A stretch of DNA of 64,000 nucleotides, from contig NZ_CP060394.1 in NCBI RefSeq assembly GCF_014274465.1, positions 1 through 64,000 on the forward strand, read 5' to 3'. This document shows positions 34,067 through 47,538 of this stretch, one piece after another (positions within the stretch are counted from its first letter, which is position 1; every line of letters starts with the position of its first letter). The position numbers and the translations under genes are program-made. The stretch is from Alloacidobacterium dinghuense. Its GTDB lineage: Bacteria > Acidobacteriota > Terriglobia > Terriglobales > Acidobacteriaceae. A model generated the notes under the pieces. It saw only the letters and a program-made list of their open reading frames with translations, was not told the origin of the DNA and did not search any database.

Positions 34067-36360
34067 CGAGCGGCCTTGTCGAAAGAGGTTTGAGCTTGGA
34101 TCGTTTGCACTGCTTCGCTGCCGTTGATATTGCCATTCGTATGTGTTGCGAAGGGAAGCTCGATAATAAAGCGCGCGCCAAGAGGATGGTTCTGCTCTGC
34201 GCGAATGGCTCCTTGATGATCCTGAATGATCTTGGACGCGATGGCGAGTCCGAGGCCGGTGCCGCGCTGTTTTGTTGAGAAGTATGGCAGGAAGAGGCGC
34301 TCCCGAGTCTCATCGGTCAGACCGTGACCGGTGTCAGTGATCGTGACTTCCGCCATTTCGTGATGATCCGTAAGACCGGTTTCGACGGTCAATACGCGCA
34401 GGCGGCTCTCCTGCATAGCCTCGGCAGCATTATCGATCAGATTCGCGAGGGCGCGCTTCAATGCTTCCGCATCCGCCATGACGGGCGGAAGCTGCGGGGA
34501 AAGGCGCACGTCCACGCGGATGTCGCCGAGCCGGTCTTCAAAGAGGCGCAGCGCATTTTGCACGATGAAATTGAGGTCGGCCGGCTTCGGATGAGCGGTC
34601 GGAAATTGTGCCAGCGCCGCGAATTGATCGACCAGCGTGCGCAGAGTTTCAACCGAGCCGAGGATCACGTCACTGCAGGAGCGGATGACGCCCGGCGACT
34701 CCGGCGCGTTGCGATCGATATGTCTCTTGATGCGCTCTGCCGAAAGGGCGATCGGCGTGAGCGGATTCTTGATCTCGTGCGCGATACGTTGCGCGACTTC
34801 CTTCCATGCAAGCTGCCGTTGTGCCTGGAGAAACTCCGTGACGTCCTCAAGCACGAGAATAGAACCGCGGCGGTTCTGGCCAAGTTGCAGCATGGCCATG
34901 GTGGCGGCAAGGTTCAACTTGCCTTTGGGGTTGCGCATCTCGAATTCGGTTGCGGCGACTCCCATGCGTTGCGCGCGACGCGCAAGCAGGGTGAGTTCGT
35001 TGGCGATGTCCTCGGGAACGACGCTGGTGAGCGGAATGCCGCTGAGAGACTGCGGCGCTCCCGGCGGCAGAAGATCGGCGAAGGCCTGATTGGCCTGCGT
35101 GATTTGAAGCGTCGCGTCCAGGGTAACTACGCCGCCCGGAATGGTCTCAAGAATCGTTTCGAGCTCGCGGCGGCGCTCTTCCAGTGTGGTATTGGCCTCG
35201 AACAGTTGCGATGTCGACTGCTCGGCGATCATGCGGCTCTGTTCAAGATCGGCCGCCATGTGATTGAAGGCTTGCAGGAGTTCGCCGAGTTCTTCCGTTG
35301 CGGAGATGGTGACGCGCTGCTGATAATGTCCGGCGGCGATCTCATCCATTGCATCGGCCAGATTTTCCAGCGGCCGCGTAATCTGCTTTGAGAAAAACCA
35401 GGCAAGCCAACTGCTGGCAAAAAATGTCAGCGCAGTGAGCAGAAGCAGCAATAGCAGGTAGGTACTGCGAATGCTGCGGCGCTGGCGGTAGATGGCCCAG
35501 TATTGCTCCGTGCCCGCGCGGATTTCGCCCACCGTTTTGCTTAGACCTGATGGCAGCGGCAGGCCGACGACGATGATCCCGCCGCCCGATGTGCTTGCCA
35601 TTCCGAGCGCGTAGTCTGTGTCGCCGATAGAAGCCACAGGCTCGTCGGTACGTTGCGCAGCTTTGCGAATGACCGATGTCGGCGGTTGCCCACTCTGCAC
35701 CTGGGTCGCATTATCGTCCATCCATGCGCGGATTTTGACGGGTCCGGATGCTGATGGCAGCTGGTATTGCGTGATCGCGTTCTCATCTCTATAAATGACG
35801 GCGAAACCACCCTGCAGGGTGATGCGATGCGTCCGTATCTCGTCGAGCAAGGCAGTGGTATTTCCTGCCTGGTAGTTCAGCCCGATGGCTTCAGAGCGGG
35901 CGAGCGATTCGGCTTCTGCACGCGCATTCTGCGTGACGTAATGCGAGAGCTCAAGAGCAATGCGGGTCGAATCTTCGCGCAATTGCGATACAGGTTGCGA
36001 GAACCAGCGGTCGATGGAGCGGTTCATCAGCCCGAAGCTGAAGAAGAACATGAAAGCCGCAGGCGCAAACGAGAGCAGCAAAGCTCCAACGAGCATGCGG
36101 GAACGCAGACGCGATCCGAGCAGGCGGTTGCGCCGGTCGGCATAGATCTTGAGGATATTCCGCGATAACAGCACCAGTAGCAGAAGGAAGAGCAGGAAGA
36201 CGATGACAGTAAGTGTAGTGAATAGAAAGATTGCTGCTACGCTGTGGGGGTAAAGGAAATTCAGTCTGAAGGCGTTAAGCGAAGCCAGCACGAGGAGCAG
36301 CACGATGAGGATGCTACCAAGAGCGATGATCGTGACTCGCTTGTGCTTCATATTTGGCAC
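34063..36360 (-). CDS. NtrY-like membrane sensor histidine kinase
   Basis: 765-aa kinase. Hydrophobic segments near 9-30, 43-66, 91-112 and 301-323 frame a periplasmic region (about 115-300); then HAMP (322-375), PAS (398-510), HisKA with His528 in RIAHEIKNPLTP, and HATPase with DNAAEA, DTGHGL and GTGLGLAI. This is the NtrY layout. Starts at GTG 36360 or ATG 36351; TATAAT stands 5 nt before the GTG, so initiation at the GTG of a leaderless mRNA is possible, while GGAG suits the ATG only if transcription starts further upstream. Transcribed with the downstream regulator. Signal unknown. Confidence 0.92.
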   Translation of the reverse strand: MPNMKHKRVTIIALGSILIVLLLVLASLNAFRLNFLYPHSVAAIFLFTTLTVIVFLLFLLLLVLLSRNILKIYADRRNRLLGSRLRSRMLVGALLLSFAPAAFMFFFSFGLMNRSIDRWFSQPVSQLREDSTRIALELSHYVTQNARAEAESLARSEAIGLNYQAGNTTALLDEIRTHRITLQGGFAVIYRDENAITQYQLPSASGPVKIRAWMDDNATQVQSGQPPTSVIRKAAQRTDEPVASIGDTDYALGMASTSGGGIIVVGLPLPSGLSKTVGEIRAGTEQYWAIYRQRRSIRSTYLLLLLLLTALTFFASSWLAWFFSKQITRPLENLADAMDEIAAGHYQQRVTISATEELGELLQAFNHMAADLEQSRMIAEQSTSQLFEANTTLEERRRELETILETIPGGVVTLDATLQITQANQAFADLLPPGAPQSLSGIPLTSVVPEDIANELTLLARRAQRMGVAATEFEMRNPKGKLNLAATMAMLQLGQNRRGSILVLEDVTEFLQAQRQLAWKEVAQRIAHEIKNPLTPIALSAERIKRHIDRNAPESPGVIRSCSDVILGSVETLRTLVDQFAALAQFPTAHPKPADLNFIVQNALRLFEDRLGDIRVDVRLSPQLPPVMADAEALKRALANLIDNAAEAMQESRLRVLTVETGLTDHHEMAEVTITDTGHGLTDETRERLFLPYFSTKQRGTGLGLAIASKIIQDHQGAIRAEQNHPLGARFIIELPFATHTNGNINGSEAVQTIQAQTSFDKAAR

Positions 36361-41241: not shown

Positions 41242-43287
41242 ATGGAATCCTTCTTCAGCCGTTATAAGAACGCCCTGGTCCTGATCGTGGTGCTTCTGGC
41301 ACAGGTCATCGGCGTCGCCATACAGGTGCGCCGCCCTTTGCCGAAGGAGCATGCGCAGCCGGATGCCGGTGGTATACGCCTGATTCGCTACTGGGCGATC
41401 AGCTTGGTGTCGCCGCCGGAGCGGCTGGTGCATTGGCTGGGCACCAGCATTCTCGGCGTCTGGGACAACTATCTCGACCTGATCCATGTGCGGCAGCAAA
41501 ATAAGGACCTTCAGTCAGAACTGCAGCGCATCCGTATCGAAGAAGGCGGGATCGTAGAGGATGCGCGGCAAGGGCAGCGGCTGCAGCAGTTGCTGGCTTT
41601 CAAGCAAAAGTACGTCTATCAGACGGTGCCCGCTCAGATCATTGGTACTTCCGGCACGGAACAGTCGCGCATTCTTTCGATTAATAAAGGATCGAAGGAC
41701 GGAGTGGGCGTCGACATGCCGGTAATTACGCCCGAGGGAGTTGTTGGGCGGATTCGCGAAGTCTTTCCTCACACCAGCCAGGTACTCGAAATTACCGATC
41801 CGACCAGCGGCGCGGGCGTCATCCTTGCCACAACTCGCATCCGCGGCATCCTGCGTGGGACTGCGCTGGGCCAGCCGCAGGTGGTCAACGTGATGCCCGA
41901 TGAGCGGATCAAGGCAGGCGAGCAGGTCGTGACCAGCGGTGGCGACCAGATTTTCCCGCGCGGACTGGCTGTTGGCGTTGTCGATCGCGTGGTGACCGAT
42001 CCCGACCACGACCCGCTGGTGGATGTTTTGATTCATCCCGCGGCGAATCTCGCACAGCTGGAAGAAGTGCTGGTCATTACCAATATGGGCGACGTGATCA
42101 CGCCCAAGCAGAAGCTGGACATGATGCAGAGTGAGGCAGCGGCGGATGCCGAGCAACTGAAGGCATCTGAGATTTTGGCGGAGCGGCTGCCGAGCCGGAT
42201 CGATCCCGATGCGCCGAAGACCGATGATGAGAACAGCGACGATTCGGCGGACGCCCAAGGCGAGGGCATCGCCCGGCCGATGCGTCCACCGGCTGCGCTC
42301 CGTCCAGACCGCTTCACTCCGAATACAACTCCTGCGGCAGCAAGCCTGACCCCGGGTGCCCGCTTAGCCCCGCAATCGGAGGGTTCTGGGACCACCACGG
42401 CAAGCGCGGCAAAACCGCACGCGACAGTACCCGCAAGCGTCGGTTCGGAAAACCCCAACGTAACCGAAACCGCCGCTGCCGTGCCGAAGAAGAAAGGACC
42501 GGATCTGGTTCCCGACGATGGCAGCCGTCCGCCGTCGACAATGGCTGCGCATCCAACCACCCCGTCGTCAACGGCTAGCGCCTCCGCGCGCGAAGAGACA
42601 ACAGGAGCCGCGCCGGTTCATGCGCCGATGGTAATGATGCCCGCGTCTTCGACTCATGGCCCGGCAACCGCGACCGGCAGTACCGCGACTTCCACCACCC
42701 GGCCAGCGGTCAATGGGTCAACAGTCAATGGGTCAGCGATCAATGGATCATCGGCCTCTTTCAACGGCGGCACAGCGCATACCACGAGCGCGAGCAACGG
42801 CGCCGCGACCCAGCCTCATGCGACAACAGCTGCCGGAGGCGGAGTTCCAGCTGCCACCAAGCCTGCGGGTAATTCCTCAGCGTTGAATGGCACAATCACT
42901 CATACGAATGCCACGGCAGGGAACGGCAGCACAGCATCGCCCGGAACCGCTGCTCTCCATGCAACGAACCCTCGGCCTGCCGCCGCAAGCGCGGACAACA
43001 GCGCGGGCGGTGAGGTCAAAACGAAGGTGGTAGTGGACGGCCCGCTGCCCTCAGGCGCGAAGAAGCCCCAGCCGTCCGCATCGACTGCCCCCGCGAGCCA
43101 TCAAACTCCATCAGCGCAAACCCAGCAGACACAACATGCTCCAACCGCGCCGGCAGTGCAACACAAGGCGCCAGAGCTGGTTCCGGATGATGGCAGCCGT
43201 CCTCCTCCGACGATGTTGAAGCCCAAGCCGCAAACGCAGCCGACGGCTCCGGCGCAAACCCAGCCTCAAGGAGGCCGTCAGGGATGA
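41242..43287 (+). CDS. mreC: Rod shape-determining protein MreC with long low-complexity tail
   Basis: 681-aa protein, over twice the usual length. Residues 1-285 are canonical MreC: N-terminal membrane segment (ALVLIVVLLAQVIGVAI), coiled coil (QQNKDLQSELQRIRIEEG) and two beta domains (VIGTSGTEQSRILSINKG-like; VTSGGDQIFPRGLAVGVV). The remaining ~400 residues, in the periplasm, are Thr/Ser/Ala/Pro-rich and disordered-looking, with NGS-type repeats (VNGSTVNGSAINGSS) and two copies of LVPDDGSRPP followed by TM (near 420 and 645). The tail may span toward peptidoglycan or bind partners. Overlaps mreD by an ATGA junction. Confidence 0.93.
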   Translation: MESFFSRYKNALVLIVVLLAQVIGVAIQVRRPLPKEHAQPDAGGIRLIRYWAISLVSPPERLVHWLGTSILGVWDNYLDLIHVRQQNKDLQSELQRIRIEEGGIVEDARQGQRLQQLLAFKQKYVYQTVPAQIIGTSGTEQSRILSINKGSKDGVGVDMPVITPEGVVGRIREVFPHTSQVLEITDPTSGAGVILATTRIRGILRGTALGQPQVVNVMPDERIKAGEQVVTSGGDQIFPRGLAVGVVDRVVTDPDHDPLVDVLIHPAANLAQLEEVLVITNMGDVITPKQKLDMMQSEAAADAEQLKASEILAERLPSRIDPDAPKTDDENSDDSADAQGEGIARPMRPPAALRPDRFTPNTTPAAASLTPGARLAPQSEGSGTTTASAAKPHATVPASVGSENPNVTETAAAVPKKKGPDLVPDDGSRPPSTMAAHPTTPSSTASASAREETTGAAPVHAPMVMMPASSTHGPATATGSTATSTTRPAVNGSTVNGSAINGSSASFNGGTAHTTSASNGAATQPHATTAAGGGVPAATKPAGNSSALNGTITHTNATAGNGSTASPGTAALHATNPRPAAASADNSAGGEVKTKVVVDGPLPSGAKKPQPSASTAPASHQTPSAQTQQTQHAPTAPAVQHKAPELVPDDGSRPPPTMLKPKPQTQPTAPAQTQPQGGRQG

Positions 43288-43808
43288 GCAGGCTCATCGC
43301 CGCATCGCGGCGCGATGTTGAGGTTCAGCCGTATCCTCTGATCGTTTTCGTTCTGGTGCCGCTGCTGGCCCTGGGACTGCAGTCCTTTGTCTCGCTGCAC
43401 TTCCAGCGCTTCGATATTCTGGACCTGCCGCTGCTCGTGACAATTTACTTCGCCATCACGCGGCGCAATCCGATTGCCGGCACCATCACAGGGGGAGTGA
43501 TTGGCATCGCTCAGGATGCCCTTACTCGCCAGCCGCTCGGCATCTTTGGCATTTGCAAGTCGATCATCGGCTATCTGGCCGCATCGCTGGGAGTAAGAAT
43601 CGACACGGAGAATCACGGCACGCGCGCGTTGCTGACGTTGGCCTTCGTGTTTTTGCATAGCGGCATGTACTGGGTGCTGGTGCGGAGGTTACTAGTGCAG
43701 CCGTACGCATGGAACTGGCTTCACGAACTGTTGCGGGCGCTGATCAATATGGTTGTTGGAGTCATTCTTTTCGCGCTGCTGGATCTCGCGAAGCGCAAGG
43801 AATACTAG
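43284..43808 (+). CDS. mreD: Rod shape-determining protein MreD
   Basis: 174-aa polytopic membrane protein with about five hydrophobic segments, including LIVFVLVPLLALGLQSFV and LLTLAFVFLHSGMYWVLV, and the block GTITGGVIGIAQDALTRQPLG characteristic of MreD. Partner of MreC in the elongasome. Coupled to mreC by an ATGA overlap; 125 bp separate it from mrdA. Confidence 0.9.
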   Translation: MSRLIAASRRDVEVQPYPLIVFVLVPLLALGLQSFVSLHFQRFDILDLPLLVTIYFAITRRNPIAGTITGGVIGIAQDALTRQPLGIFGICKSIIGYLAASLGVRIDTENHGTRALLTLAFVFLHSGMYWVLVRRLLVQPYAWNWLHELLRALINMVVGVILFALLDLAKRKEY

Positions 43809-43933: not shown

Positions 43934-45925
43934 ATGCATAATCGGGAAGAAAAGCTGCCAGGCATCAAGCTGACGGTCATTCAATATGTGATCGTCGGCA
44001 TTCTGCTGATTCTGATTTTCGGTCTGTGGCGGCTGCAGGTGGTGGGCGCGGAAAATTACCACGCGCTCGCTGAAGCCAACCGCATCCGCAAGGTCCCGAT
44101 TCTTGCTCCGCGAGGAAAGCTGTTCGACCGCGAAGGACGACTGGTCGTCGATAACTATCCTTCGGTCTCGTGCTTTCTGGTGCGTGAGCAGGGCCATGAC
44201 TACATGGCGGATCTGCCGATTATTGCGCGCGGATTGAACATGACGGTCGACCAGATCGACGCGATTTTGAAAAAGTATCGCACCGCGCCAAAGTATCAGC
44301 CGCTGCCTTTGAAGCAGGACATTACACCGGACGAGGAGGAGTTCATCGAGGCGCATCGCGATGAGTTTCCAGAGCTCGAAACCGTAGAAGAACAGCGACG
44401 CCTGTACCCCAAAGATGGTTTTGCCGCGCACCTGATTGGCTATGTGGGTGAGGTCAGCGAGGACATGCTGAACAATCCGCAATATGCCTATTACGAGCCG
44501 GGCGATGTGGTGGGCAAGTCAGGCGTGGAGCAATCATACGATTCGCTGCTGCGCGGCCAGGACGGTTCGCAGGATGTAATTGTCGACAGCCATGGCCGCG
44601 AGGTAGGCAAGCTGGGCACGGAGCATGCGGTTCCCGGCAAGAGCCTGAAGCTGACGATCGATATCGATGTCCAGCGTGCGGCGGAGAACGCTCTTGGCGA
44701 TCGCAATGGCGCGATCATCGCCATGGATCCGCATACGGGCGAAGTGCTGGCAATGGTGAGTCGGCCCACCTTCGATCCAAATGACTTCGCGGTGCGTATC
44801 GGGCGCGAGGAATGGAACAAGCTCATCACCGATCCTGAGCACCCGCTGCTGAATAAGGCGATTCAGGCGCAGCTTGCTCCGGGGTCGACGTTTAAGATCA
44901 TTATGTCGTTCGCCGGCCTCGAAGAGGGCGTAGCTCAGGACATGAAGGTGCATTGCTCAGGCGGTGTGAGTCTGTTCGGGACCTACCAGAAGTGCTGGGT
45001 GCATAGTGGCCACGGGGAAGTCGACATTCACAAGGCCATTTATCAGTCCTGTGACGTGTTCTTTTACACGCTGGCGGCGAGGCTGGGGATTGAGAAGATT
45101 GCGAAGTGGGCACATGCGGTTGGCATCGGCGAGAAGACCGGAATCGATCTGCCCAATGAAGTGTCCGGCGTAATGCCCTCTGCAGAGTGGAAGATGAAAT
45201 ACTTCCATCAGAGATGGTATCCGGGCGAGGTCACGTCTGTTGGCATCGGTCAGGGTGCGGTGACGGCGACACCGGTACAGATGGCGCGGGCGCTTTCCGG
45301 GATTGCTTCTGGTGGCGTGATGAAACGGCCACACGTGGTTTTTCCAGACGAACTGCCGGAAGACTATCGCAAGGCGATGTACGACTCTTTCCCCGGTTCC
45401 GGAGACAAGGCTATACAGATCGATCCGGATAGCTGGGAGACGATCACCGACGCTATGGCGCTGGTCCTGAGCCCTGCAGGAACCGACCCGAGCGCGCATC
45501 TTGAAGGTATCGATTTTGCCGGCAAGACGGGCAGCGCGCAGACCATGAGCAACGCGCTGGCAGCGCGGCTCGGGCATGCCCATTCTGTAAAGGACAATGC
45601 GTGGTTTGTTGGCTTCACGCCCCGGCGCAATCCAGACATCGTGGTCTGCATTCTGTTTGAAGCCGGTGAGCACGGCAAGCTGGCAGGCCGTCTGGCCGCT
45701 CGCGTGATAGAGGCGTATGTGAACAAACAGCGGCGCCTTGAAAATAATCTGATCGCCAAAGCGCCACAGAAGGTGGACGTGGGCGCGCTCTGGGACAATC
45801 CTACCGCCCCGAAGATTTTTGGCGGCAAGCAGGTTGTGAAGCCGCAGGGCGATCAGGCGGAGATGTGGGGCGGCCATTTTTATCTGACTGTGCCCCCGGT
45901 TGTGGCTTCGGCGAAGGCGCCGTGA
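43934..45925 (+). CDS. mrdA: Penicillin-binding protein 2 (elongasome transpeptidase)
   Basis: 663-aa class B PBP that cross-links lateral-wall peptidoglycan with RodA. One N-terminal membrane segment (IQYVIVGILLILIFGLWRL), dimerisation domain (APRGKLFDREGRLVVDNYPS), and transpeptidase motifs SxxK as S318TFK, SxN-type SCD near residue 372, and KTG at 531-533 followed by SAQ. Full length. Its natural partner rodA lies downstream, but the two are parted by about 500 bp carrying a GIY-YIG gene and repeats. Confidence 0.95.
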   Translation: MHNREEKLPGIKLTVIQYVIVGILLILIFGLWRLQVVGAENYHALAEANRIRKVPILAPRGKLFDREGRLVVDNYPSVSCFLVREQGHDYMADLPIIARGLNMTVDQIDAILKKYRTAPKYQPLPLKQDITPDEEEFIEAHRDEFPELETVEEQRRLYPKDGFAAHLIGYVGEVSEDMLNNPQYAYYEPGDVVGKSGVEQSYDSLLRGQDGSQDVIVDSHGREVGKLGTEHAVPGKSLKLTIDIDVQRAAENALGDRNGAIIAMDPHTGEVLAMVSRPTFDPNDFAVRIGREEWNKLITDPEHPLLNKAIQAQLAPGSTFKIIMSFAGLEEGVAQDMKVHCSGGVSLFGTYQKCWVHSGHGEVDIHKAIYQSCDVFFYTLAARLGIEKIAKWAHAVGIGEKTGIDLPNEVSGVMPSAEWKMKYFHQRWYPGEVTSVGIGQGAVTATPVQMARALSGIASGGVMKRPHVVFPDELPEDYRKAMYDSFPGSGDKAIQIDPDSWETITDAMALVLSPAGTDPSAHLEGIDFAGKTGSAQTMSNALAARLGHAHSVKDNAWFVGFTPRRNPDIVVCILFEAGEHGKLAGRLAARVIEAYVNKQRRLENNLIAKAPQKVDVGALWDNPTAPKIFGGKQVVKPQGDQAEMWGGHFYLTVPPVVASAKAP

Positions 45926-45931
45926 GAAAGC

Positions 45932-45976
45932 AAACTGCAGGTCCCTCCGCTGCGCTTCGCTCCGGTCGGGATGACA
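45932..45976 (+). repeat. Repeat copy A (AAACTGCAGGTCCCTC...GGGATGACAA)
   Basis: 45 bp starting AAACTGCAGGTCCCTC and ending GTCGGGATGACAA, with an internal GC-rich part (CGCTGCGCTTCGCTCC). Same orientation as copy C. Forms with inverted copy B a potential long hairpin closing about 29 nt. Confidence 0.8.
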
Positions 45977-46005
45977 ATTTTAAGGGGGAGCACATCAACA
46001 AACCT

Positions 46006-46041
46006 TTGTCATCCCGAGCGAAGCCGAGGGACCTGCAGTTT
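46006..46041 (-). repeat. Repeat copy B, inverted
   Basis: 36 bp reading TTGTCATCCCGAGCGAAG and ending ACCTGCAGTTT on the forward strand, the reverse complement of copy A apart from about 9 bp missing in the centre. Lies 20 bp before the GIY-YIG start codon. Confidence 0.8.
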
Positions 46042-46061
46042 GCGATGTTGATGAAGCACGA

Positions 46062-46361
46062 ATGAGCGATCGGGAACATCACTACTACGTCTACTTGATG
46101 TCGAGCAGAACGAGGGTCCTCTATTGCGGCATGACAAATGATCTTGCGAGCCGAGTTGCCGAGCATAAGGGTAGAGCGTTTTCGGGGTTTAGTGCTGACT
46201 ACAAGTGTCATCGTCTGGTTTGGTATGAAAATTTCAGGTATGTGAACAATGCGATAGACCGGGAAAAGCAGATCAAACGCTGGAGACGTGACAAGAAACT
46301 TGTCTTAATTCAAGAGATGAATCCGGCGTGGGTGGATTTGAGCGAAGAGTGGTTTAAATAA
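46062..46361 (+). CDS. GIY-YIG nuclease family protein
   Basis: 99-aa single-domain GIY-YIG protein of the UvrC-like (UPF0213-type) group. The GIY and YIG equivalents are YYVYLMSS and YCGMTNDLASRVAEHKGR (Arg in the conserved helix), with YENFRYVNNAIDREKQIKRW carrying the conserved Glu. Catalytic residues seem intact. No fused DNA-binding domain. Such stand-alone genes often accompany dispersed palindromic repeats, as here, where three repeat copies surround it. Start ATG 46062; a 6-codon frame (46045-46065) overlaps it through ATGA. It might act on the repeat DNA; that is untested. Confidence 0.9.
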   Translation: MSDREHHYYVYLMSSRTRVLYCGMTNDLASRVAEHKGRAFSGFSADYKCHRLVWYENFRYVNNAIDREKQIKRWRRDKKLVLIQEMNPAWVDLSEEWFK

Positions 46362-46366
46362 AAAGA

Positions 46367-46407
46367 AAACTGTAGGTCTCTCCGCTTCGCTTCGGTCGGG
46401 ATGACAA
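46367..46407 (+). repeat. Repeat copy C, direct
   Basis: 41 bp reading AAACTGTAGGTCTCTCCGC and ending GTCGGGATGACAA, differing from copy A at a few positions and lacking about 4 bp in the centre. Begins 6 bp after the GIY-YIG stop codon. Confidence 0.8.
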
Positions 46408-46434: not shown

Positions 46435-47538
46435 ATGCGCCGCTTTCTCTCACTTCGCGATTTTGACTGGACCCTGCTGGGGTTCGTGCTGATTCTTTCC
46501 GTCATCAGCATTCTCGAGATCTACAGCGCGACCATGCACACGAAATTCGTCGGCTTCCACAAAATGCAGGTGTTGTGGCTGATCGGCGGCCTCGTCGCCA
46601 TGTTCGTCTTTTCGGTGATTGACTACCATTTCCTGTTTGACTTCATTCACTGGATCTATGGATTTTGCGTGGTCTCGCTCGTCGCAGTCCTGGCGGTCGG
46701 CACCAAGGTGCTTGGCGCGCGGCGCTGGATCAAATTGCCCGGAGGCATTCATTTTCAACCATCCGAGTGGGTGAAACTGGTACTTATCGTCGCCGTAGCG
46801 CGCTATTTTGTCGGTCTTTCGGGCCGCGAAGAATTGACATGGAAGGACATCTTCAAAGCGATGGCGCTCGTAGGAGTCCCGATGCTGCTGGTCTTGAAGC
46901 AGCCTGATCTAGGAACAGCCCTGACCTACTCGCCAATCCTGCTCGTCGGACTGTTTCTCGGCGGAATTGACTGGAAGAAGGCCGGGATCATTCTCCTCGT
47001 CGGACTACTGGCGGTAGGTGTCGTCTGGAAGAGCGGCAAGGTGTTGAAACCCTATCAGAAAGCCCGTCTGACCAGTTTCATGAACCCGGATAACGACCCG
47101 CAGGGGACCGGCTATCAGATTCGCCAATCACTGATTGCGGTAGGCGACGGCGGGGTCTTCGGCCGGGGAGCCACCAAGGGCACACAAACCCAAGGCGACT
47201 TCCTGCCGATTCCGTATACGGATTTCATTTTTGCCGCGTTCTGTGAGGAGCACGGCTTTATCGGCGCGACGGTCGTCTTACTGCTATACTTCTTGATATT
47301 GATGCGTTTGATTCAAAACGCTCAAACAGCCGCGGACCAGTCCGGAACGCTCATCGTGATGGGTGTGGTAGCCGTTTTGATCTTTCAGATCGCGGTGAAC
47401 ATCGGGATGGTGATCGGGCTGATGCCAGTTACCGGAATTCCTTTACCGTTAATGAGTTACGGTGGATCTTCGGTACTGTTCACGTTTCTGGCTCTGGGAA
47501 TGGTAATGAACGTCCGTATGAACCGCTTCGTGAACTGA
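46435..47538 (+). CDS. rodA: Peptidoglycan glycosyltransferase RodA
   Basis: 367-aa SEDS polymerase that makes glycan strands from lipid II with PBP2. About ten membrane segments; signature elements GARRWIKLPGGIHFQPSEWVK near residue 95, KQPDLGTALTYSPIL, and the C-terminal PVTGIPLPLMSYGGSSVLF are intact. AGGA upstream of the ATG at suitable distance. Follows the repeat/nuclease cassette, so transcription from mrdA must pass through about 500 bp of repeat-rich sequence, or rodA has its own promoter. Confidence 0.95.
   Translation: MRRFLSLRDFDWTLLGFVLILSVISILEIYSATMHTKFVGFHKMQVLWLIGGLVAMFVFSVIDYHFLFDFIHWIYGFCVVSLVAVLAVGTKVLGARRWIKLPGGIHFQPSEWVKLVLIVAVARYFVGLSGREELTWKDIFKAMALVGVPMLLVLKQPDLGTALTYSPILLVGLFLGGIDWKKAGIILLVGLLAVGVVWKSGKVLKPYQKARLTSFMNPDNDPQGTGYQIRQSLIAVGDGGVFGRGATKGTQTQGDFLPIPYTDFIFAAFCEEHGFIGATVVLLLYFLILMRLIQNAQTAADQSGTLIVMGVVAVLIFQIAVNIGMVIGLMPVTGIPLPLMSYGGSSVLFTFLALGMVMNVRMNRFVN

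Follow-up and report, generated by a model that had tools for sequence, protein, structure and literature searches.

A single-domain GIY-YIG nuclease gene flanked by CGTC-type REP palindromes is a candidate minimal mobile unit in diverse bacteria

CGTC-tagged REPs have been reported from five phyla by Di Nocera et al. (2013; PMC3733652), according to whom they 'apparently lack a dedicated transposase' and whose study leaves their mover open. The definition given there comprises a CGTC or TGTC tag, an 8-9 bp stem that starts with AT, a loop of 4-5 nt and a CCA-like tail, and the class includes the dRS3 elements of Neisseria, which are the CGTC-1 elements in this genus, as well as RPE-4 and RPE-6 of R. 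conorii. With regard to GIY-YIG nucleases, Dunin-Horkawicz et al. (2006; PMC1564403) asked whether further members 'may function as molecular parasites'. Within the limited literature searched, we found no publication that links GIY-YIG nucleases to REPs. Here we describe a GIY-YIG nuclease that is a strong candidate for the spreader of this large class of bacterial repeats without a known mover.

The locus in question lies in a window of 64,000 nucleotides (the whole stretch of DNA that was analyzed) from the genome of Alloacidobacterium dinghuense, a single contig of 6.27 Mb. A sequence-only reading of the window had placed a repeat copy A, an inverted copy B, a 99-aa GIY-YIG gene and a third copy C between mrdA and rodA; these coordinates hold (Table 1), as do the edges of the cassette, with A starting at the seventh base past the mrdA stop (which ends at 45925) and C ending 27 bp before the rodA ATG (46435). 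In gapped alignments, A and inverted B are identical at 35 of 36 bases, C and A at 37 of 41, and C and inverted B at 33 of 36. The B copy contains TGTCATCC, that is, a CGTC/TGTC-type tag with AT at the start of the stem. A and B are arranged head-to-head, with the GTC tags facing each other 29 bp apart, and, as had been proposed, can fold as a single hairpin (DNA energy -38.3 kcal/mol, z -8.0, none of 200 shuffles equal); the single units A, B and C fold weakly (DNA energies of -8.7, -3.2 and -2.7 kcal/mol, with 19, 109 and 88 of 200 shuffles, respectively, as good). The geometry of the cassette can be refined: the inverted pair of the gene consists of B and C, with the GTC ends outermost, and A dimerizes with B and forms a direct pair with C. 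The open reading frame at 46062-46361 matches PF01541 with 48.2 bits (cut-off 22.6); a search of NCBIfam with the nuclease returned no family, and an Rfam search with 1001 bases around the cassette yielded no matches. Elsewhere in the window, two more single matches to the 12-base repeat end, with at most one mismatch, are found at 35597 and 43509, the latter within the open reading frame 43284-43808; both are probably due to chance.

Table 1. Features of the cassette and its neighbors (positions in the window)
Feature	Position	Strand	Remarks
repeat copy A	45932..45976	-	its GGATGAC end faces right; forms a head-to-head dimer with B and a direct pair with C
repeat copy B	46006..46041	+	upstream member of the inverted pair; its GTCATCCC end faces left
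GIY-YIG nuclease gene, 99 aa	46062..46361	+	PF01541; mean pLDDT of the predicted model 93.5
repeat copy C	46367..46407	-	downstream member of the inverted pair; its GGATGAC end faces right
putative mobile unit B-gene-C, 402 bp	46006..46407	+	boundaries placed by analogy with copies in other genomes
mrdA (PBP2)	43934..45925	+	upstream neighbor, outside the unit; PBP2-type transpeptidase
rodA	46435..47538	+	downstream neighbor, outside the unit; FtsW/RodA

The pattern GTCATYCYGASC has 136 matches genome-wide, compared to 3 for the reversed pattern, so that this repeat type is not due to chance. The interpretation offered by the sequence-only reading is upheld in part: a cassette of REPs and a nuclease that lacks a transposase, its recurrence in diverse bacteria and its empty sites are borne out by the comparisons below, and recognition or spreading of the repeats by the nuclease is a proposal. 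A strict reading is opposed by the 136 repeat matches against five PF01541 hits in the genome and by the repeat-rich genomes without a nuclease hit that are described below. A second, partial relative of the nuclease, near 1.78 Mb, sits among a repeat type of its own, GTCATTCTGACGACC, a 15-mer with 40 exact copies genome-wide and, with up to two mismatches, 71 copies versus 16 for the reversed pattern; a relative in the congener G070 has matching surroundings. A third relative in this genome, L157 (G000:C1:5916315-5916596), sits on a long branch of the tree; it has no repeat end within 200 bp on either side and is possibly a domesticated or decayed copy.

Comparison of orthologous sites yields empty counterparts of the cassette. 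The mrdA-rodA site, at which the sequence-only reading had suggested looking for an empty allele in close relatives, holds neither the gene nor a repeat in the congener G070 and a single solo repeat in the congener G100. A putative remnant of the nuclease gene beside the latter repeat was considered and rejected, being a weak 14-column match that was equaled by 12, 17 and 13 of 500 shuffles in three comparisons. Among the rodA loci, 29 of 30 of which were read, the nuclease gene is present at three, in three genera. In the tree of the nucleases, those from the mrdA-rodA loci of the window and of G035 are sisters (99/84) and that of G119 is placed elsewhere, a pattern that indicates either separate origins at this site or uneven loss; the unit at the mrdA-rodA site of the window may be old, given that its sister in G035 occupies the same site. 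At another site, a stretch of 664 nt in G066 contains a cassette, and its counterpart in the congener G119 measures 35 nt and is free of repeats, the flanking DNA being approximately 75% identical. A 45-nt repeat of one of the G066 nucleases (L098:1401-1445) recurs, among the matches listed, at about 30 places in G142, a different species of the same genus, with 85-96% identity. On Sphingobium plasmids, at the site between fnrL and a response regulator gene, four of the strains read have the unit, one copy carrying a frameshift; in two others the site holds just a 29-bp palindrome that is bounded by GTC-type ends, and in three more neither the unit nor the palindrome is present, two of these having other sequence instead. 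The Shinella sites that lack the unit are too diverged for the exact ends to be placed. Solo repeats vary as well, as seen when a 14-kb stretch of this genome is compared with the congeners: those near 214.5 and 216 kb are missing in both G070 and G100, that near 209 kb is missing in G070 (the only congener compared at this point), near 212 kb G070 has no repeats and G100 has one, and near 218 kb the repeat type differs from species to species.

The association between the gene and the repeats recurs across the taxonomic family of the window. A protein search of 100 genomes from this family detected relatives of the nuclease in 61, with 0 to 9 matches per genome; the 93 elements analyzed are the better-scoring hits, including 60 further stretches and L075, with the weaker hits, many of them fragments, left out, along with two duplicates of other loci (L031 and L032), a UvrC-like protein with a 624-aa frame (L033), the partial second relative (L034) and another GIY-YIG protein (L035). 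When the nearest repeats within 300 bp on each side were classified, with one mismatch to the motifs allowed, 41 of the 93 genes were found to lie within an outward inverted pair (F.gene.R), and 22 have a repeat upstream only, the open frame in several of these continuing into the downstream repeat; the remaining arrangements are F.F (10), R.F (7), R.R (6), otherwise one-sided (4) and absent (3). In the R.F elements (L042, L065, L115, L121, L130 with two genes, and L143) the nearest GTC ends point at the gene, and at least six of these elements, at the same loci, sit between direct copies of a repeat-bearing segment. At each of two loci, L130 (G027:C11) and L138 (G018:C20), two nuclease genes lie in tandem at a distance of about 0.6 kb, and repeats or long direct copies separate and surround them.

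The end test, which registers a 7-base end motif up to 200 bp from the 288-nt core, was applied to 92 of the 93 elements, the flanks of the remaining one being too short for this and the other flank tests. A GTCATCC-type end upstream combined with a GGATGAC-type end downstream was found in 66 of these 92, compared to none of 88 windows displaced by 700 bp; the opposite pair occurs in 15 of 92 versus 0 of 88, some relatives carrying both pairs, and at least one repeat end in 86 of 92 versus 17 of 88. The corresponding counts at cassette-free rodA loci are 0, 0 and 3 of 24. Six elements (L106, L122, L138, L138b, L148 and L157) have no motif end; alignments of L106, L138, L138b and L148 show variant ends missed by the motif (GTCTTCC, GTCATGC, GTCGTGC) and L122 has a variant too, so only L157 looks bare.

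As suggested by the sequence-only reading, cassettes of REPs and a nuclease without a transposase recur in diverse bacteria, both in plasmid records and in named genomes. From the 33 matching plasmid records, 12 were read, in addition to N. gonorrhoeae, and in 10 of the 12 the gene is flanked on both sides by palindromes of the GTCAT, GTCAC or GTCGC type. These records come from Rhizobium, Sphingobium (twice, one site), Azospirillum, Novosphingobium, Shinella, Sinorhizobium, Planktothrix, Spirosoma and Aeromonas, the Planktothrix and Spirosoma plasmids having both repeat orientations on one or both sides of the gene. The gene on the Photobacterium plasmid has palindromes downstream only, and no flanking palindromes were seen around that of the Rhizobium tumorigenes plasmid. 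Two of the plasmid-labelled records, NZ_CP119140.1 (2.2 Mb) and CP090106.1 (3.7 Mb), are chromosome-like in size. In Azospirillum lipoferum AZO_p3 (L160), the unit sits between sufB and sufC, inside an operon-like row, and in Planktothrix agardhii p1 (L164) the nuclease gene has an MmeI-type restriction gene on one side and the DISARM gene drmA on the other.

The scan of named genomes was restricted to the best 80 of 575 confirmed places, 75 of which were usable, the flanks of the others being too short. Among these 75, the outward pair was detected within 200 bp in 44, compared to none of the 64 displaced windows; for the opposite pair, the corresponding counts are 12 of 75 and 1 of 64. With the record titles placed in phyla by ourselves, the outward pair is found, within the same best 80 of 575, in 26 of 43 alpha-, 4 of 5 'Delta-', 3 of 6 gamma- and 1 of 3 betaproteobacterial loci, in the one locus from Desulfobacteraceae, in 1 of 3 from Ignavibacteria, and in the single loci from a planctomycete, Omnitrophota, Uhrbacteria, Daviesbacteria and UBP14. 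It was not detected at the single loci, within this set, from Anaerolineae, Myxococcota, Scalindua, Nitrospirae, Wolfebacteria and Flavobacteriaceae; inspection by eye reveals variant or one-sided repeats at the Nitrospirae and Scalindua loci. Neither repeat end is present at E. coli yhbQ.

The flanking repeats are matched within each element, as indicated by motif-free alignment of the inverted flanks. For the 92 family elements, the score of an element's own flanks (mean 29.3, median 27.5) exceeds that obtained with the flanks of other elements (14.8, sd 4.5), and the own pair is the best of all in 38; for the named set (75 of the best 80 of 575), the own score is 29.8 versus 15.3 for other elements and 13.5 for displaced flanks, and the own pair is the best in 30 of 75. 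Additional evidence comes from related copies within a genome. Leaving out the tandem pairs L130/L130b and L138/L138b, in which the shared DNA covers neighboring sequence, 15 within-genome pairs share DNA over the gene. In 10 of these, sharing stays inside the gene upstream; in the other five, from four genomes (two pairs from G066 with a common member, and one each from G027, G031 and G090), it extends upstream and in each case breaks off 1-7 nt beyond the outer GTC end. On the downstream side, sharing breaks off within 7 nt of the outer GAC end, for at least one partner, in four of these five pairs; in the G090 pair it ends before that point. The median length of the 112 units delimited is 437 bp. 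Their GTC is preceded by T in 0.68 and by C in 0.28 of cases, together 96%, which defines the unit ends as [C/T]GTC. A short target-site duplication was sought at the 112 units and rejected, since shuffled flanks did as well in 62 of 200 shuffles. Symmetric GTCATCC-type palindromes with two tags were likewise dismissed as common excision scars, being rare (9 in 7 of 100 genomes).

Nucleases and repeats also vary together. Within genomes that contain several elements, similarity of the nucleases correlates with that of the repeats (rho 0.45 over 52 pairs; the permutations average 0.25, and 24 of 2000 reach the observed value). Between genomes, rho is 0.22 and exceeds every one of 300 permutations, by a statistic that ignores kinship. 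Across the 100 genomes, the number of nucleases correlates with repeat density (rho 0.57, with phylogeny handled only in 11 pairs), the median being 19.3 repeats per Mb in the 61 genomes with a nuclease versus 6.3 in the 39 without. In the 11 discordant within-genus pairs, which were hand-picked so as to represent every genus with one positive and one negative genome, the genome with the nuclease is the richer in repeats in 8 (one-sided p=0.027). The relationship has exceptions in both directions: more than 15 repeats per Mb are found in 8 of the 39 genomes without a nuclease hit, some of which are incomplete (113.7 in G079), and fewer than 5 in 5 of the 61 genomes with a hit.

In an alignment of 45 nuclease sequences, five residues of the protein are invariant (Y11, Y21, G23, R31 and H35), and two more, E68 and N87, are at least 90% conserved. 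The profile matches the UPF0213 structure 1zg2 with E=2.2e-10, and the same structure is the best Foldseek match of the predicted fold (E 1.4e-3, with none at 0.001 or better), followed by Slx1-Slx4 structures (E 0.04 and weaker). E. coli YhbQ is another UPF0213 member. The Slx1-Slx4 enzymes act on branched DNA, so that, to the extent that the modeled fold is a guide, a structure-directed cut at the palindrome is plausible. A search of the 99 aa for NUMOD or another specificity domain found none, PF01541 being the only match. The C-terminal N87, which may correspond to the Asn of UvrC and I-TevI, is conserved in the nuclease; a C-terminal Asn is described as absent from the Slx1 cluster in PMC1564403.

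Taken together, these findings make it fairly probable, in our assessment, that the gene and its repeats are a minimal mobile unit of REPs and a nuclease, in which a UPF0213/Slx1-like enzyme acts on and spreads its cognate palindromes. The recurrent architecture, the copied unit that ends at the outer repeat and the presence or absence of the unit at orthologous sites are apparent from the comparisons; we infer the nuclease cleavage and the transposition of the repeats. The unit would consist of a single-domain GIY-YIG gene bracketed by its own CGTC-type REPs, mostly arranged as an inverted pair whose [C/T]GTC tags point outward. The nuclease would recognize the palindrome as a hairpin or cruciform, with the head-to-head dimer perhaps being recognized most easily, and would cut near the GTC tag; copying or joining into new sites, mostly between genes, would follow and would leave no short target duplication. 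The solo repeats, like the dimers, might be non-autonomous derivatives that are spread in trans by the nuclease, by analogy with the supposed role of the RAYT transposase for GTAG REPs.

Several observations count against this scheme: the single repeats of the window are poor hairpins, sharing stays inside the gene upstream in ten of the 15 within-genome pairs, no short target-site duplication was found, and the correlation of nucleases with repeat density has exceptions. It also has to be weighed against homing, whereby the nuclease would break a solo repeat, a dimer or adjacent DNA, and repair would copy the gene in, duplicating the repeats or using them as homology; insertion would then be targeted mainly to sites already holding a repeat. 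Free-standing GIY-YIG homing nucleases occur in T4-like phages. Support for homing comes from directly copied stretches of about 60-300 bp, mostly containing one or more repeats, that flank the gene: a direct-flank score of at least 40 was obtained at 33 of 92 family loci, compared to 1 of 84 displaced ones, and at 18 of the 75 named loci (from the best 80 of 575), and A and C of the window are such direct copies. For the 92 family elements, the own direct score has a mean of 32.5 and a median of 18.5, versus 13.2 for other elements, and the inverted score is the greater in 51; the direct mean is driven by a subset of elements. The flanks thus come in two styles, as inverted pairs and as duplicated segments that contain repeats, with some genes showing both. 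A simple two-ended unit does not explain the flanking direct copies, and the duplicated segments agree with insertion by repair at a repeat no less well than with the cutting and joining of such a unit. The empty alleles give a divided answer: the G100 site holds one solo repeat and two Sphingobium strains hold the 29-bp palindrome that the gene would split, but those of G119 and G070 are free of repeats, and deletion between repeats accounts equally for the solo alleles. Furthermore, at loci flanked by an inverted pair only, a solo repeat would not supply both ends, and the protein, at 99 aa with PF01541 only, has no NUMOD or other specificity domain. We regard homing as a rather unlikely, if serious, alternative to a mobile unit.

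The possibility that the protein is a host enzyme for structure-specific repair, which resolves REP hairpins or cruciforms while the repeats are kept as regulatory or transcription-stop elements, appears improbable. It agrees with the proximity of the fold to UPF0213 and Slx1 and with the predicted role of prokaryotic Slx1 orthologues in double-strand break repair (PMC1564403), an SOS box at one of three Caulobacter COG2827 genes (PMC1839093) and the description of TnpA-REP enzymes as domesticated (PMC8266576); the patchy, multicopy distribution of the gene (0 to 9 per genome, in 61 of 100 genomes), the sharing of DNA between copies up to the repeat ends and the joint absence of gene and repeats in G119 are at odds with it. 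It is still less probable that another enzyme, be it RAYT, another IS200-like protein or an unknown one, moves the REPs, with the nuclease gene as cargo between two of them. REPs are reportedly targets of insertion sequences, and this genome does carry two Y1_Tnp genes, but neither has such a repeat in its 3.3-kb locus, for which reason RAYT was rejected as the mover here, and a single nuclease family as repeated cargo across many groups would be odd. In addition, Di Nocera et al. (PMC3733652) detected no tyrosine transposase gene with CGTC repeats at its flanks. According to the same article, REPs are mostly located between and downstream of genes, so that they could by chance gather around the ends of a dispensable gene; this reading is contradicted by the displaced-window and rodA controls, in which the outward arrangement is seen in 0 of 88, 0 of 64 and 0 of 24 cases, as well as by the matching of repeats within elements, and its probability is negligible.

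We further suggest, tentatively, that GIY-YIG nucleases, by whichever route, could be the movers of the CGTC REPs, one of the two large REP super-families. If so, these REPs would have a mobile-element class of their own, in which a structure-specific GIY-YIG nuclease of about 95 residues does the work of a transposase; its non-autonomous derivatives would include dRS3, RPE-4/6 and the GTCATCC palindromes found in this genome; a new class of nucleases would join the enzymes able to spread bacterial DNA; and many genes annotated as 'GIY-YIG nuclease family protein' would gain a role. Given that the gene is tiny and usually adjoins its cognate repeat, the question of the CGTC REP mover can be tested with purified protein and oligonucleotides.

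Among the known systems, DDE-type transposons and MITEs differ in having a short target-site duplication, with none found in the 112 units. Free-standing GIY-YIG homing endonucleases share the catalytic residues and the patchy distribution, but the present proteins have no NUMOD or separate DNA-binding domain, bring their own palindromes and occupy many unrelated sites. Members of UPF0213/COG2827 (Slx1-like; 1zg2, 1ywl, E. coli YhbQ) are likewise single-domain GIY-YIG proteins; in contrast to the genes described here, yhbQ is without such repeats, and the N87 conserved here, if equivalent to the C-terminal Asn that PMC1564403 describes as absent from the Slx1 cluster, would be a further difference. 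The CGTC REPs, as described in PMC3733652, have the same [C/T]GTC tag, the same AT at the start of the stem and the same head-to-head dimers, if, as we infer, head-to-head there means that the tags face each other; the repeats in the family of the window appear to differ in often having long variable inner arms and lacking the CCA tail. In N. gonorrhoeae, a relative of the nuclease is surrounded by repeats of the form CGTCATTCCCGCG...GGGAATC, and forms such as CGTCATTCCCGCG...CGGGAATCCA accompany the gene in Aeromonas, Azospirillum and many of the named relatives (from the best 80 of 575). The REPtron (RAYT/TnpA-REP) likewise has one small nuclease gene adjoining inverted tagged palindromes, many further repeat copies in the same genome and more than one cognate repeat type. 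Its enzyme, however, is an HUH/Y1 transposase and its tag is GTAG, as opposed to a GIY-YIG protein, with only PF01541 found, and a [C/T]GTC tag; with both enzyme and tag being different, the unit described here works like a REPtron yet is not one.
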